Program-made: the position numbers and the translations under genes
Source of the DNA: Succinimonas amylolytica DSM 2873
Lineage (GTDB): Bacteria; Pseudomonadota; Gammaproteobacteria; Enterobacterales; Succinivibrionaceae
Length of the DNA stretch: 64,000 nt
Direction: 5' to 3'
Assembly (NCBI RefSeq): GCF_000378405.1
Contig: NZ_KB899637.1
Coordinates: 336,374 to 400,373 of the forward strand
The notes under the pieces: model-generated
The model's database searches: none
Told to the model about the DNA's origin: nothing
What the model saw: the letters and a program-made list of their open reading frames with translations, nothing else
Shown here: piece by piece, positions 15,228-20,889 of the stretch
How positions within the stretch are numbered: position 1 is the stretch's first letter
Layout of the letters: each line of letters begins with the position of its first letter

Positions 15228-15249
15228 ACCGGCGTCACTGGCCGGTTTT
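15228..15249 (+). terminator. Hairpin between secreted-protein gene and Rrf2 gene
   Basis: ACCGGC (15228-15233) and GCCGGT (15241-15246) pair perfectly over a 7-nt loop, followed by four T residues. It overlaps the last codons of the convergent Rrf2 gene. The T-tract is short, so confidence is moderate. Confidence 0.5.
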
Positions 15250-15711
15250 ATCAGATGCGGCAGGATCCCCGGAAGCAGCGGAGGTACCGGTATCCGGTGC
15301 GGGATCTGGTGCAGTAAGGAGATCGCTGAGCCTTTTGCCGTAAAAGAAGTTTCTTACCAGATCGTCGAATTCCTGCCACAGAGGCAGGGTTTTGCATTTG
15401 TCCCTGCGGGGACAGACATAGTTCCTGTTGGCCAGACAGGCCACGGAGGAAAGTGCTCCCTCCATAAGCTCCACAATTTCTCCTATCGTATACTCTTCGG
15501 GCTTCCGGGCCAGCCGGTATCCGCCGCCCTTGCCGCTGACTCCGATAATGAGGCCTCCGGTGACGAGGCTTCTGACAATGATTTCCAGATACTTCTTGGA
15601 AATTTCCTGCCGTTCGGAGATATCCCGGAGCGGAATATAGCCCCCGTCGTGTTCCTGTTCGGCAAGATCAATCATAACCCGTATTGCATAGCGGCCGCGT
15701 GTTGAAATCAT
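15235..15711 (-). CDS. Rrf2-family transcriptional regulator (IscR/CymR-like)
   Basis: A 158-aa Rrf2 protein. Its N-terminal winged helix begins MISTRGRYAIRVMIDLA; the wing motif GKGGGYRLA is at residues 61-69. Three Cys residues, C92, C100 and C106 (spacing x7 and x5), resemble the Fe-S ligand set of IscR (C92, C98, C104), so an Fe-S cluster or thiol sensing is possible. The C-terminal 25 residues are a disordered Ala/Pro/Asp tail. AGGAAA precedes the ATG. The gene diverges from the metY-cysK locus, whose promoter carries an inverted repeat over its -35 box. A CymR-like role in sulfur and cysteine control is therefore inferred. IscR itself is less likely because no isc genes are nearby. Confidence 0.88.
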   Translation of the reverse strand: MISTRGRYAIRVMIDLAEQEHDGGYIPLRDISERQEISKKYLEIIVRSLVTGGLIIGVSGKGGGYRLARKPEEYTIGEIVELMEGALSSVACLANRNYVCPRRDKCKTLPLWQEFDDLVRNFFYGKRLSDLLTAPDPAPDTGTSAASGDPAASDKTGQ

Positions 15712-16025: not shown

Positions 16026-16060
16026 TACCTATTGACATAGTAGGTAAATGGCATTACTAT
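16026..16060 (+). promoter_or_regulatory. Sigma-70 promoter with operator-like inverted repeat, metY-cysK
   Basis: TTGACA (16032-16037) and TACTAT (16055-16060) are separated by exactly 17 bp. TACCTA (16026-16031) and TAGGTA (16041-16046) form a perfect 6-bp inverted repeat with a 9-bp spacer that contains the whole -35 box. A protein bound here would block RNA polymerase. The divergent Rrf2 regulator is the obvious candidate. Transcription would start near 16067, giving a leader of about 485 nt before metY. Confidence 0.75.
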
Positions 16061-16246
16061 AGCGTCATTCCTTCAGGAAACGTGAAGACGGCCTCTGGGA
16101 CGGCATTCCGGGTTCTGGAAACAGAGCAGGGCCTGAAGGATGATGAAGAAATGAAAATACCGGCGCTGGCTTTAAACAGCAGAAGCCGGCACGGACCGGC
16201 CATATTTTTACCGCCGGATTCATCACCTGATGACAGGGAGGACAGT

Positions 16247-16342
16247 ATGACAATTTTTGGAACTTCCGGTTCTCTATATTACAAATACGGCAATATCACT
16301 GCCTCATGTCCTTGCTTTTGTTTCTGCCGAATGTGTCATTAG
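16247..16342 (+). CDS. Cysteine-rich leader peptide of the metY-cysK attenuator, 31 aa
   Basis: ATG 16247-16249 follows AGGGAGG (16235-16241) with 5-bp spacing, the best ribosome site in this leader. The peptide begins MTIFGTSGSLYYKYG and ends SCPCFCFCRMCH. Cys occupies positions 21, 23, 25, 27 and 30: five of the last eleven codons. The first segment of the antiterminator (16348) starts five bases after its TAG. This is the arrangement of amino-acid leader peptides such as TrpL or HisL, but for cysteine. A GTG in the same frame at 16082 could extend it to 86 aa with the same end. The gene is too short for ordinary gene calling. The role is inferred from the codon run, the RNA stems and the downstream genes. 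Confidence 0.82.
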   Translation: MTIFGTSGSLYYKYGNITASCPCFCFCRMCH

Positions 16343-16347
16343 CTGGT

Positions 16348-16463
16348 GTCGGATTCATTCCGGAGGCTTTCCCTTCAGGAAGATGTCAGGACTGCGTTTT
16401 ACGTCCTTGTTCCCGAATCTGACTGCGTTGATTTATCAGGGTGGCGATTCGGGCTTTTTATTT
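16348..16463 (+). promoter_or_regulatory. Cysteine-responsive transcription attenuator (antiterminator/terminator)
   Basis: Terminator: CCCGAATC (16412-16419) pairs with GATTCGGG (16446-16453), followed by CTTTTTATTT. Antiterminator: GTCGGATTC (16348-16356) pairs over nine positions, one G-U, with GAATCTGAC (16415-16423). Both stems use GAATC at 16415-16419, so they exclude each other. A ribosome stalled at the Cys codons would leave 16348-16356 free and allow readthrough. A ribosome reaching the stop codon would cover it and allow termination. Confidence 0.8.
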
Positions 16464-16551: not shown

Positions 16552-17835
16552 ATGAGCAATTACAGATTTGAAACCCTTCAGCTTCACGTAGGCCAGGAAC
16601 AGGCTGATCCTGCTACCGATGCCCGTGCGGTACCCATTTACCAGACTACCTCCTATGTCTTCCATAACAGTCAGCATGCCGCTGACCGTTTCGGGCTTCG
16701 GGATGCCGGCAACATCTATGGCCGTCTTACCAATCCTACTGAGGATGTTCTGGAACGCCGTATTGCAGCTCTTGAAGGCGGTACCGGAGCGCTGGCGGTA
16801 GCCTCCGGTGCTGCAGCTATTACCTACGTAATCCAGGCTCTGGCGGCCTCCGGCGGTCATGTGGTGGCCCAGAAGACCATATACGGCGGCAGCTACAATC
16901 TGCTGGCGCATACTCTGCCGCAGTACGGGATTTCCACCACCTTTGTGGATATTCACAACCTTGAAGAGGTGGAGAAAGCCATTACCGGCAATACCCGTCT
17001 TATCTACATTGAAACTCTCGGCAATCCCAACAGCGATATTCCGGATATTGAGGCTCTGGCCGAAATTGCACATCGCCACGGTCTTCCGCTGGTTACTGAC
17101 AACACCTTCGGCACGCCGTATCTGATAAGACCTATTGAGCACGGTGCCGACGTGGTGGTGCATTCCGCCACCAAGTTCCTGGGCGGACACGGCACTACTC
17201 TGGGCGGAGTGATCGTGGATTCCGGCCGCTTTGACTGGAGTGCCTCCGGCAGATATCCGGGCATTGCCGCCCCCAATCCCAGCTATCATGGAGTTTCCTT
17301 CCAGCAGGCTGCCGGCCCCAATGCCCTGACTGTCTATATCCGGGCCATTCTGCTCCGGGATACCGGTGCTGCCATTTCTCCCTTTAATGCCTTCCTGCTG
17401 CTTCAGGGCGTGGAAACTCTGTCCCTGCGTCTGGAGAGACATGCGGAGAATACTGCGAAGGTGGTGGAATACCTTTCCCGGCATCCGCAGGTAGCAAGAG
17501 TGAATCATCCTTCACTCCCGGATCATCCTGACCATGAGCTTTACAAAAAGTATTTCCCAAATGGCGGAGCCTCGATTTTCACCTTTGAGATAAAGGGCGG
17601 TCAGGAGGCAGCCTGGAGGTTTATCGACAGCCTTAAGATTTTCTCCCTGCTGGCCAATGTGGCTGATGTGAAGAGCCTGGTGATTCATCCGGCCTCCACC
17701 ACTCATTCCCAGCTTTCGGAAACCGAGCTCCGGGAGGCGGGAATCACCCCGGGCACCATACGGCTGTCAGTCGGTGTGGAGCATATTGATGACATTATTG
17801 CCGACCTGGAAAACGGTTTTCAGGCAGTTAAGTAA
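16552..17835 (+). CDS. metY: O-acetylhomoserine sulfhydrylase (PLP enzyme)
   Basis: A 427-aa Cys/Met-metabolism PLP enzyme of the MetY type, which forms homocysteine from O-acetylhomoserine and sulfide; some members also use O-acetylserine. Landmarks are QTTSYVF near residue 30, YGRLTNPTEDVLERRIAALE, the PLP-binding lysine K208 in SATKFLGGHGT, and a C-terminal SVGVEHIDDI. Its length and the extended central region fit MetY rather than the shorter MetB/MetC/MetZ group. ATG 16552 is chosen because GGAG lies about 9 bp upstream; a TTG eight codons earlier is unlikely. It is the first structural gene behind the Cys attenuator and is followed 37 bp later by cysK. Confidence 0.92.
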   Translation: MSNYRFETLQLHVGQEQADPATDARAVPIYQTTSYVFHNSQHAADRFGLRDAGNIYGRLTNPTEDVLERRIAALEGGTGALAVASGAAAITYVIQALAASGGHVVAQKTIYGGSYNLLAHTLPQYGISTTFVDIHNLEEVEKAITGNTRLIYIETLGNPNSDIPDIEALAEIAHRHGLPLVTDNTFGTPYLIRPIEHGADVVVHSATKFLGGHGTTLGGVIVDSGRFDWSASGRYPGIAAPNPSYHGVSFQQAAGPNALTVYIRAILLRDTGAAISPFNAFLLLQGVETLSLRLERHAENTAKVVEYLSRHPQVARVNHPSLPDHPDHELYKKYFPNGGASIFTFEIKGGQEAAWRFIDSLKIFSLLANVADVKSLVIHPASTTHSQLSETELREAGITPGTIRLSVGVEHIDDIIADLENGFQAVK

Positions 17836-17872: not shown

Positions 17873-18808
17873 ATGTCCGGCATTCATAAGAGTTTTGCCG
17901 ATCTTATCGGCGGTACCCCGCTTCTCGAAGTAACCAATATCGAAAAGGAGCTGGATCTTAAGGCTACGGTTCTCGTCAAGCTGGAGTATTTTAATCCGGC
18001 CGGAAGTGTGAAGGACCGCATTGCCCGCGCCATGATCGCTGACGCTGAGGCCCGCGGCGCCCTGAAGCCCGGTTCGGTCATCATTGAGCCCACCAGCGGC
18101 AACACCGGTATCGGCCTGGCAGCCATTGCTGCCTCCCGGGGCTATCGTATCATTCTCACCATGCCTGAGACCATGAGCGTTGAAAGACGCAATATTCTGA
18201 AATTCTACGGTGCCGAGCTGGTGCTTACCGAGGGTAGCAAGGGCATGAAGGGAGCTATTGCCAAGGCTGAGGAGCTGCACCGGGAGATCCCGAACAGCTT
18301 TATTCCGGGCCAGTTTGTAAATCCGGCAAATCCGAAGGTGCACCGCGAAACCACCGGTCCTGAGATCTGGAAGGATACTGAAGGCAAGGTTGATATCTTC
18401 ATTGCCGGTGTCGGCACCGGCGGTACCGTAACCGGTACCGGAGAGTACCTTAAGGAGCAGAATCCTGACATTAAGGTGGTGGCTCTGGAGCCTCTGGATT
18501 CGCCGGTGCTGTCCGAAGGCAAGGCCGGCCCCCATAAGATTCAGGGTATTGGTGCCGGCTTTGTTCCCGACGTTCTGAATACCGCCGTTTACGACGAAGT
18601 GTTCCGCGCTTCCAACGAGGATGCCTTCAGAACATCGCGCCTTCTGGCTAGGAAGGAGGGCATATCCGTGGGTATTTCCTCCGGTGCCGCTCTGTTTGGG
18701 GCCATTGAACTGGCAAAGCGTCCGGAGAATGCCGGCAAGGTGATCGTGGCTCTGCTTCCGGATAGCGGTGACAGATATTATTCGACGCCGCTTTTTGCCG
18801 CAGAGTGA
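17873..18808 (+). CDS. cysK: Cysteine synthase (O-acetylserine sulfhydrylase)
   Basis: A 311-aa fold-type II PLP enzyme making cysteine from O-acetylserine and sulfide. The PLP lysine is K47 in [11 protein letters not shown]. The substrate/phosphate loops [10 protein letters not shown] (about 77-86) and [12 protein letters not shown] (about 182) are intact, as is GISSGAA near the C-terminus. Length and motifs fit CysK/CysM type; I use cysK because of the close match to the CysK core. A GGAG site precedes the ATG. It is cotranscribed with metY, so both sulfide-assimilating reactions fall under the same leader. A strong terminator follows. Confidence 0.95.
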
Positions 18809-19811: not shown

Positions 19812-20777
19812 TCAGAAGGTATACCGGGAACGGTAGAGTCTGTCGTTAAAGCTGAGCCTGGCGAGTCCCGCGGCGAGATCTCCGTTTGCGGCGTCGGCCA
19901 CCGGAACATAGCTGTCATTCAGGGTGTTATCCACCAGAAAGCCCCGGGCGTCGATCATCAGATAGGCCGCATGCAGATCGCTTTCCAGCACGGCCTCGCA
20001 GGTATCCGAGATTCTGGTTTTCACAGACAGGGCGGCGTCCCGGTCAGAAATTCTGAGTCCGGTGTTGCGTTCGGCATAGTCCCGGTATTCGTGATCCGAA
20101 ACCACAATGTCCGCATTGGAGAAGCTGGCGTTCCGGAACAGATTCATCTTGAAGATTTTCCAGCGGGAGACCGGCATGGTCCTGATGAACCGGGCCATGT
20201 TTTCGGATTTGTTGAGTGCGGAGACCACCGTGTTGATCTTGATGCTGCAGTTCCCGCTGATCTGGACCACAGTATCCAGCAGGGAGGCAAGCCGCTCGCT
20301 TCCCAGGATCCGGCCGCTTCCGGTGCACCGGCCGATTTTCTTCAGGGTTTCCGGATTCATGCTGTCTATGGAGAGCCCGAGGCAGGAGAGCAGGGGGACA
20401 TGTCTTTTCAGCCACGCATCGGTCATCAGAAATCCGTTGGAGATTACGGATACCGGATGTCCCAGGGAATGGATATACGAGGTGATGGCGGTAAAATCCG
20501 GATGCATAAGAGGCTCGCCTCCGGCAATGTTGAAGGAGCAGCCGGGCACAAGGCTCCGGCAGCGGTCGATGATTTTCCGCCAGGTGTCAAAGCGGAGTAC
20601 CCGGCAGGATCCGAAATGGGCGAAGCAGTGCCGGCAGCGGTAATTGCAGGTTTCAATAATGTGGAGATTGAACTTAAGTCCGTGCCGGGGCATCTGAGGG
20701 GTGGCGGTTCCGGAAACGGCAATGGGAGCAAAGCCGGAAGTGCAGCCGGAAACGGAGCTGGAATTCTGGGCGGTCAT
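19812..20777 (-). CDS. Prokaryotic viperin-like radical SAM protein (putative antiviral nucleotide synthase)
   Basis: A 321-aa radical SAM protein with the cluster motif C44-x3-C48-x2-C51 (TCNYRCRHCFA) preceded by FNLHIIE. The spacing and flanking residues are those of viperins. Further viperin hallmarks are FNIAGGEPL, VSVISNGFL, SIDSMNPET with an IGRCTGSGR, and above all KINTVVSALNKSENM followed by PVSRWKIFK. Animal viperin has KINSVINRFNVEEDM and PVRWKVFQ at these places. The C-terminal YLMIDARGFLVDNT also matches. Viperins convert CTP, GTP or UTP to chain-terminating 3'-deoxy-3',4'-didehydro nucleotides. ATG 20777 is chosen for its GAGGTG site; a GTG four codons earlier is less likely. No nucleotide kinase is adjacent. 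Substrate choice is unknown. Confidence 0.85.
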   Translation of the reverse strand: MTAQNSSSVSGCTSGFAPIAVSGTATPQMPRHGLKFNLHIIETCNYRCRHCFAHFGSCRVLRFDTWRKIIDRCRSLVPGCSFNIAGGEPLMHPDFTAITSYIHSLGHPVSVISNGFLMTDAWLKRHVPLLSCLGLSIDSMNPETLKKIGRCTGSGRILGSERLASLLDTVVQISGNCSIKINTVVSALNKSENMARFIRTMPVSRWKIFKMNLFRNASFSNADIVVSDHEYRDYAERNTGLRISDRDAALSVKTRISDTCEAVLESDLHAAYLMIDARGFLVDNTLNDSYVPVADAANGDLAAGLARLSFNDRLYRSRYTF

Positions 20778-20889
20778 AGGGCACCTCACTGTTGTTTTCT
20801 GATGGCTGGGGGGACTGTCAGGCGTTGCTACTGCCTTTTCTAAATTATCGGCTACCCGGAAGGCCGTTACGGAATAAAAAGGTGCGGAC

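Follow-up and report, generated by a model that had tools for sequence, protein, structure and literature searches.

A predicted cysteine-sensing attenuator before metY-cysK of Succinimonas amylolytica and a wider family of Cys-Arg-Met leaders before metY

The metY-cysK genes of Succinimonas amylolytica DSM 2873 are very probably controlled by a ribosome-mediated transcription attenuator that would read the charging of tRNA-Cys. This reading of the leader region, put forward in the original prediction, is supported by the parts found there, by their conservation within the genus and by covariation in a distant family of related leaders; the regulation itself is predicted. The window, meaning the whole stretch of 64,000 nucleotides that was analysed, contains the following features.

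15235-15711, minus strand: divergent Rrf2-family regulator (IscR/CymR-like), TIGR00738 over cut-off
16026-16060, plus strand: predicted promoter TTGACA-17-TACTAT with inverted repeat TACCTATTGACATAGTAGGTA, the best plus-strand promoter-like match
16235-16242, plus strand: leader-peptide ribosome-binding site, AGGGAGGA, read from sequence
16247-16342, plus strand: leader-peptide ORF of 31 aa, MTIFGTSGSLYYKYGNITASCPCFCFCRMCH and stop, read from sequence
16307-16336, plus strand: putative sensor, five Cys codons (C21, C23, C25, C27, C30), read from sequence, with a core common to relatives
16327-16333, plus strand: arm 1, CCGAATG, tentative, from sequence; could pair with CATTCCGG, with one bulge, and so sequester arm 2
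16348-16356, plus strand: arm 2 (GTCGGATTC), 5' strand of the predicted antiterminator, from sequence and fold; kept in G001
16356-16363, plus strand: arm 1' (CATTCCGG), candidate partner of arm 1, tentative, from sequence
16412-16459, plus strand: predicted intrinsic terminator, CCCGAATC...GATTCGGG plus C and UUUUU, from the fold; kept in G001
16415-16423, plus strand: arm 3 (GAATCTGAC), 3' strand of the predicted antiterminator, sharing GAATC with the terminator, from sequence and fold
16552-17835, plus strand: metY, O-acetylhomoserine/O-acetylserine sulfhydrylase, TIGR01326 at 636 bits (cut-off 495)
17873-18808, plus strand: cysK, cysteine synthase A, TIGR01139 at 452 bits (cut-off 351)

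The leader peptide and its ribosome site lie exactly where they had been predicted, and its Cys codons, which start at 16307, 16313, 16319, 16325 and 16334, include five among the last eleven codons. This cluster is beyond chance. At least five Cys in eleven codons occurred in any ORF of the leader region in 1 of 4,000 dinucleotide shuffles, and neither strand of the 64-kb window has a second ORF of this density. Cys codons thus cluster beside the switch, as codons for the regulated amino acid typically do in ribosome-mediated transcription attenuators, and translation of the leader ORF is predicted from its SD, its ATG and the frame statistics of the wider family described below. The ribosome site has counterparts in two genomes of the same genus, GGGAGGAC being kept in G001 and GGAGGAC standing in G002. 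Within the cluster, the codons for Cys-Arg-Met form a core (TGCCGAATG, 16325-16333) that recurs among the relatives.

The two stems proposed in the original prediction, and their mutual exclusivity, were recovered at the same positions. Arm 2 and arm 3 can form nine pairs, one of them a G.U, and the terminator stem joins CCCGAATC (16412-16419) to GATTCGGG (16446-16453), after which come C and UUUUU. The folding energy of the terminator is -19.8 kcal/mol (z -2.27), equalled by 5 of 200 shuffles. Because GAATC belongs to both stems, they form a mutually exclusive antiterminator and U-tract terminator of the kind that defines the attenuator class. The complete folds are nearly isoenergetic, at -41.2 kcal/mol with the terminator versus -40.3 kcal/mol with the antiterminator forced, and this difference of less than 1 kcal/mol is what a switch needs. 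Both stems are placed 97 nt before metY-cysK. Taken alone, the antiterminator duplex of the window is not beyond chance (shuffle p 0.18), and comparison with relatives must therefore decide; it is from the sequences of these relatives that the duplex gains weight.

For the switch itself, we infer a sequence of events that runs from the transcription start and ribosome stalling to the direction of the response and the role of a repressor. Transcription would start just after 16060, downstream of the putative promoter, and a ribosome would begin the leader at 16247 and, where Cys-tRNA is scarce, stall on a Cys codon. Were C30 (16334) to occupy the A site, the front edge of the ribosome would lie just before arm 2, and the free arm 2 could pair with arm 3, so that no terminator would form and the polymerase would continue into metY-cysK. 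With ample cysteine, a ribosome at the stop codon (16340) would mask the first half of arm 2, arm 3 would fold into the terminator, and transcription would end at the U tract. The front edge of a ribosome lies about 12 nt past its A site. The first base of the Cys codon at position -1 stands 14 nt ahead of arm 2 in the Clostridia set introduced below. In the window, C30 (16334) and arm 2 (16348) are likewise 14 nt apart, as are TGT and the paired UUUUCGGGCAUAU of G030. This spacing implies that low cysteine would lead to antitermination and high cysteine to termination.

A second input to the promoter probably comes from the divergent Rrf2-type regulator. The predicted promoter elements, TTGACA-17-TACTAT, span 16032-16060, about 185 nt upstream of the leader ORF, and the inverted repeat (16026-16046) is a candidate Rrf2-type operator. 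This repeat is kept, with changes, in G001, G002, G018, G026 and G030. The regulator, which the IscR and CymR equivalogs match only below cut-off, is a likely repressor of the same promoter, judging from sequence. The downstream assignment to metY-cysK had likewise been predicted and agrees with the curated models, both proteins scoring over cut-off. The 16S rRNA of the genome is 86% identical to that of E. coli. Several other elements of the window may be recorded here. A second terminator-like stem, GCCGGCACGGACCGGC then CATATTTTTA, lies ahead of the leader at 16151-16207, and an upstream ATG at 16151 is in frame with the leader ORF, in a frame that is not conserved in G001. On the minus strand, 19812-20789 encodes a prokaryotic viperin (NF038283 over cut-off; PADLOC pVip), likely an antiviral radical-SAM enzyme situated near sulfur genes; adjoining it, also on the minus strand, is the gene of an AAA-ATPase-like protein with a PD-(D/E)XK domain (PF09820, PF08011; 20975-22666).

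Conservation within the genus supports both the leader and the stems. In G001, at about 79% DNA identity to the window, the leader ORF can be aligned, free of indels, as far as the Arg-Met codons (YYKNGNITACCPRLCFRRM against YYKYGNITASCPCFCFCRM); it contains ACCPRLCFRRMPENC, retains the Cys cluster and, having no stop ahead of arm 2, runs through that arm. Three pairs between its arm 2 (GTCAGGTTC) and arm 3 (GAATCTGAT) have changed one-sidedly and 9 of 9 still pair (duplex shuffle p 0.008), and the terminator is conserved. The second genome of the genus, G002, encodes PSCRMCLCRAA, with the segment SCRMCLC, and has kept the promoter together with a different but equivalent terminator. Another genus, represented by G026 and G030, has leaders of the FFAMCCRM type (MFSIPTVGYFFAMCCRMLILRAY and MFKFGSLTVSLFFAMCCRMQYFRAY, respectively), with arm 2 CGGGCAUA, an arm 3 containing UGCCCG, and terminators. 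The leader of G075 contains FCMCCRMRHSRAA, with arm 2 CTCCCGGGCA and arm 3 TGCTCGGGAG. Duplex shuffle values are 0.018 for G026 and 0 of 500 for both G030 and G075. Conservation of the Cys run and covariation of the stems had been named beforehand as checks on the prediction, and their outcome speaks for it. The ORF, the Cys codons and both stems do persist in the genus, while the long Cys run is not family-wide; compensatory changes occur in the Clostridia set, while stem substitutions in the window's genus are only of the pair-keeping kind.

These comparisons also bear on whether the Rrf2-type repressor could be the sole regulator, with the leader and stems as remnants of a once functional attenuator. 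G018, near the window by MetY, has the promoter and keeps the operator, and no leader was found in its upstream region, which makes the attenuator a dispensable device; the copy in the window has, in addition, diverged beyond the reach of the covariance model described below. Nevertheless, nine antiterminator pairs and the terminator have survived in G001 at about 79% DNA identity, and the window retains five Cys in eleven codons, a density seen in a single shuffle of the 4,000, so that control by the repressor alone is very unlikely. Elsewhere in the window's own genome, 28 TGYCGAATG sites yielded no other convincing leader; L153, considered as a second one, is a Cys-rich ORF inside a long gene, in another frame.

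The attenuator appears to belong to a much wider group of leaders, found in gut bacteria of unrelated lineages. The MetY protein encoded in the window shares about 78-85% identity with its counterparts in Clostridia of the rumen and gut and in a few other bacteria, and an equivalent leader is found upstream of metY in about 34 of 80 named loci, mainly from gut Clostridia. In 25 of the 80, an SD-led ORF before metY encodes ...MCCRMxxSRA... or close variants, nearly always with the base order TGTCGAATG-N5-CTCCCGGGCA ... TGCCCGGGAG-terminator-U. A model search added seven loci (L117, L091 from Synergistes, L112, L131, L121, L098 and L113) and, in L137, placed one element in the gap between metY and the gene that follows it; leaders of another Cys-rich kind precede metY in L094 and L124. 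Long Cys runs were rejected as a signature of the family, most relatives having one to three Cys codons before Arg-Met. As read from these sequences, its hallmark is one to three Cys codons right before Arg-Met (TGYCGAATG), about 14 nt ahead of arm 2. Searches of NCBIfam and Pfam gave no matching entry for the leader peptides.

By pattern search, 25 of 32 of these genomes, as well as 18 of 392 genomes of one order, contain the element, with a handful of matches overall in the reversed-pattern control. The distant set comprised 42 pattern-found leaders, one of them judged spurious; L200, with neither an SD nor an arm 3, was dropped as a chance pattern match. Since the pattern requires the core and the spacing, their constancy in pattern-found sets is partly by construction; every match of a looser scan, which asked only for TG[CT]CG[AG]ATG, read TGTCGAATG. 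Elsewhere the element precedes cysK (L204), a distant relative of O-acetylhomoserine sulfhydrylase (L206), polar amino-acid ABC permeases (L168, L192), a MetQ/NlpA lipoprotein (L205) and an SBP_bac_3/NlpA protein (L174). Cystine may be the transported substrate, the transporter models scoring below cut-off. In the distant genome G743 (L213), the leader before metY contains CCCCRMTFSRAFNMA and the promoter repeat CCTATTGACAAGATAGG resembles that of the window, so that operator and leader recur together. The sole member with a full layout and no Cys in its core (MYDMRM) is L121 (2192-2380), perhaps a degraded or differently tuned copy, and arm 3 is absent in L081/L088. In many distant leader ORFs (for example L077, L080, L090 and L095), Arg-Cys-stop (CGATGTTGA) forms the end or lies close to it, giving a further Cys site downstream of arm 2.

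The antiterminator covaries in the distant family. Across 37 aligned leaders it is paired in 99.2% of cells, arm 3 having been picked as the best match to arm 2 with the CCGGGAG core fixing the register. Compensatory changes affect 4 of 10 pairs (10 cells versus a shuffle mean of 0.9; 0 of 500 shuffles as high), and sliding the arms abolishes the pairing signal. The arm 1:arm 1' stem (GUCGAAUG:CGUUCGGC in Clostridia) can form in 77-83% of cells and showed no covariation in the Clostridia alignment; it was not accepted as a proven stem. The nine bases of the core are near-constant, whereas its proposed pairing partner varies.

Strongly conserved nucleotides and a covarying helix before the genes of one pathway would also be expected of a ligand-binding, riboswitch-like RNA in which the short ORF is incidental. 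In Firmicutes, conditional termination by Cys-specific T-boxes and SAM riboswitches governs sulfur amino-acid genes, a logic that the present leaders would share; those RNAs, however, sense tRNA or SAM directly and without a leader peptide. Here, an SD-ATG ORF occupies the Cys-Arg-Met frame in 47 of 49 elements and the other two frames in none, and its starts, 8-18 codons upstream of the core, shift by whole codons. The switching helix is the only one both predicted and covarying, with no binding-domain structure, and the Rfam covariance search of the window region returned no match at gathering score and no T-box or SAM riboswitch up to E 1. The sole T-box encountered (L073) lies more than 1.2 kb before metY, and the riboswitch or T-box reading, scarcely credible on this evidence, was set aside in favour of the attenuator.

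One genus, g8, appears to have kept the sensor and changed the output. Five of its genomes (L033, L036, L037, L038, L041) have, about 110 nt upstream of metY, an 11-codon ORF with a single Cys codon that ends in NCRM or SCRM and a stop (TGTCGAATGTGA). A perfect hairpin joins the final codons of this ORF, stop included (AATGTGAATAT), to ATATTCACATT, immediately ahead of AAGAGG, the ribosome site of metY, and other arms in the genus (AATGTGAATTT and AAATTCACATT) show a compensatory change from A:U to U:A. No terminator was found in the metY upstream regions of g8. The g8 leader is likely, from its sequence, a case of attenuation of translation with one Cys codon.

So short a peptide, with its single Cys, also fits a nascent-peptide or codon-specific arrest. 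In this reading, the fixed Cys-Arg-Met codons (TGY CGA ATG) would halt the ribosome because a small molecule is sensed, or simply because they form a slow site, and not through shortage of Cys-tRNA. The core reads TGTCGAATG at nine bases even where this was not demanded, and the surrounding peptide varies. Several members, however, have Cys without the exact core (MCCLM, MCMRM, ICWRM, MCSRM, RCGRM, ICYLM), and the window and L094 multiply Cys codons instead. Cys is also enriched at two adjacent positions, standing at -1 in 42 of 49 elements, at -2 in 33, and within three codons in 48, L121 excepted. Arrest of this kind is therefore unlikely, and the sensing of tRNA-Cys charging remains the preferred reading.

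The relation of the window to this family was also approached with a covariance model, R1, trained without any sequence from the window's own family, f1. Matches directly before metY were obtained in G030 (E 2.9e-8), G075 (4.2e-7) and G026 (1.3e-6). R1 does not score the window copy, G001 or G002, and the window is therefore called a divergent relative and not a scored member. Like the Clostridial leaders, it has, upstream of metY, an SD-led ORF with the TGYCGAATG core (TGCCGAATG) in frame; its tie to the family thus lies in position, promoter repeat, core and arm layout as read from sequence, and not in the model. R1 gave 0 matches across 248 genomes of the window's order and matched 2 of 299 genomes of the Clostridia-type phylum, both figures being lower bounds under strict filters and sampling. 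The f1 sequences occupy several positions in the MetY tree, interspersed with those of Clostridia, Synergistota and Spirochaetota (L028-L053, L058-L137); five label changes are drawn, of which the starred branches force only one. This suggests, short of proof from the tree, repeated horizontal transfer of metY in gut habitats, perhaps together with the leader. A speculative and rather doubtful extension would be a mobile cassette, in which metY and its Cys-Arg-Met leader moved repeatedly between Clostridia and a gammaproteobacterial family. In this cassette TGTCGAATG would act as a codon- and peptide-specific stalling site (Cys plus CGA-AUG context) with two outputs, one being termination of transcription and the other, in a single genus, exposure of the ribosome site of metY.

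Classical ribosome-mediated attenuators are those of the E. coli trp, his, phe and leu type. The present system resembles them in its SD-led leader, in the clustering of end-product codons, in an antiterminator and a U-tract terminator that exclude each other, and in the biosynthetic operon downstream. It differs in that the amino acid is Cys, in that most relatives carry arm 2 inside the leader ORF, and in that some appear to act on the metY ribosome site instead of a terminator. Cysteine had been described in the original prediction as seldom reported for this mechanism; it is less unusual than that, given the cases in Actinobacteria (PMC1262725; Canestrari 2020, as presented in PMC13236596) and before cysS in Rhodobacterales (PMC8632094). 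For Actinobacteria, Cys leader peptides without terminators have been proposed (PMC1262725), and those of mycobacteria respond to Cys, according to the citing account (Canestrari 2020, cited in PMC13236596). These polycysteine ORFs are likewise short Cys-run ORFs before cysteine-biosynthesis operons, with a Cys-responsive effect reported in that account. As far as the cited passages describe them, they are leaderless, lack a recognised terminator and act translationally or possibly through Rho, whereas the leader of the window is SD-led, has an intrinsic terminator and follows a predicted promoter by about 185 nt.

The closest counterpart in Proteobacteria is the uORFC-8-2 motif, a predicted ribosome-mediated attenuator with Cys codons and an intrinsic terminator (PMC8632094). 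That motif precedes cysS, has tandem Cys codons at 14-15 and is confined to Rhodobacterales, whereas the present leaders have a Cys-Arg-Met core and precede metY or cysK; in the window, metY lies downstream and Cys stands at 21, 23, 25, 27 and 30. By description, the family also resembles the metL leader before metNIQ of Streptomyces lividans (MSTTSDRTPATEATTTPGARCMCRRMCAF), which has a Cys/Arg/Met cluster, CMCRRMC, before a sulfur amino-acid transporter; metL is leaderless, has no clear terminator and is assigned to methionine by its authors (PMC8079986). As published, it ends in RCMCRRMCAF (PMC8079986). To us, this cluster suggests that Cys and not Met may be sensed there. No account of a Cys leader of the present kind before metY/cysK or transporter genes was found in the open-licence literature, and the family is absent from Rfam. 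Cys attenuators are thus already known, and the metY-centred family of Cys leaders is so far unnamed.

In gut bacteria, the supply of cysteine ties together the use of sulfide, redox and the synthesis of methionine. A Cys-leader family absent from Rfam would explain how metY, cysK and uptake genes are tuned in many rumen and gut Clostridia and in some Proteobacteria, and the family yields predictions as to which short ORFs are real. It would also offer a natural case of an attenuator that has seemingly moved with its gene between phyla and whose output has changed from transcription to translation.
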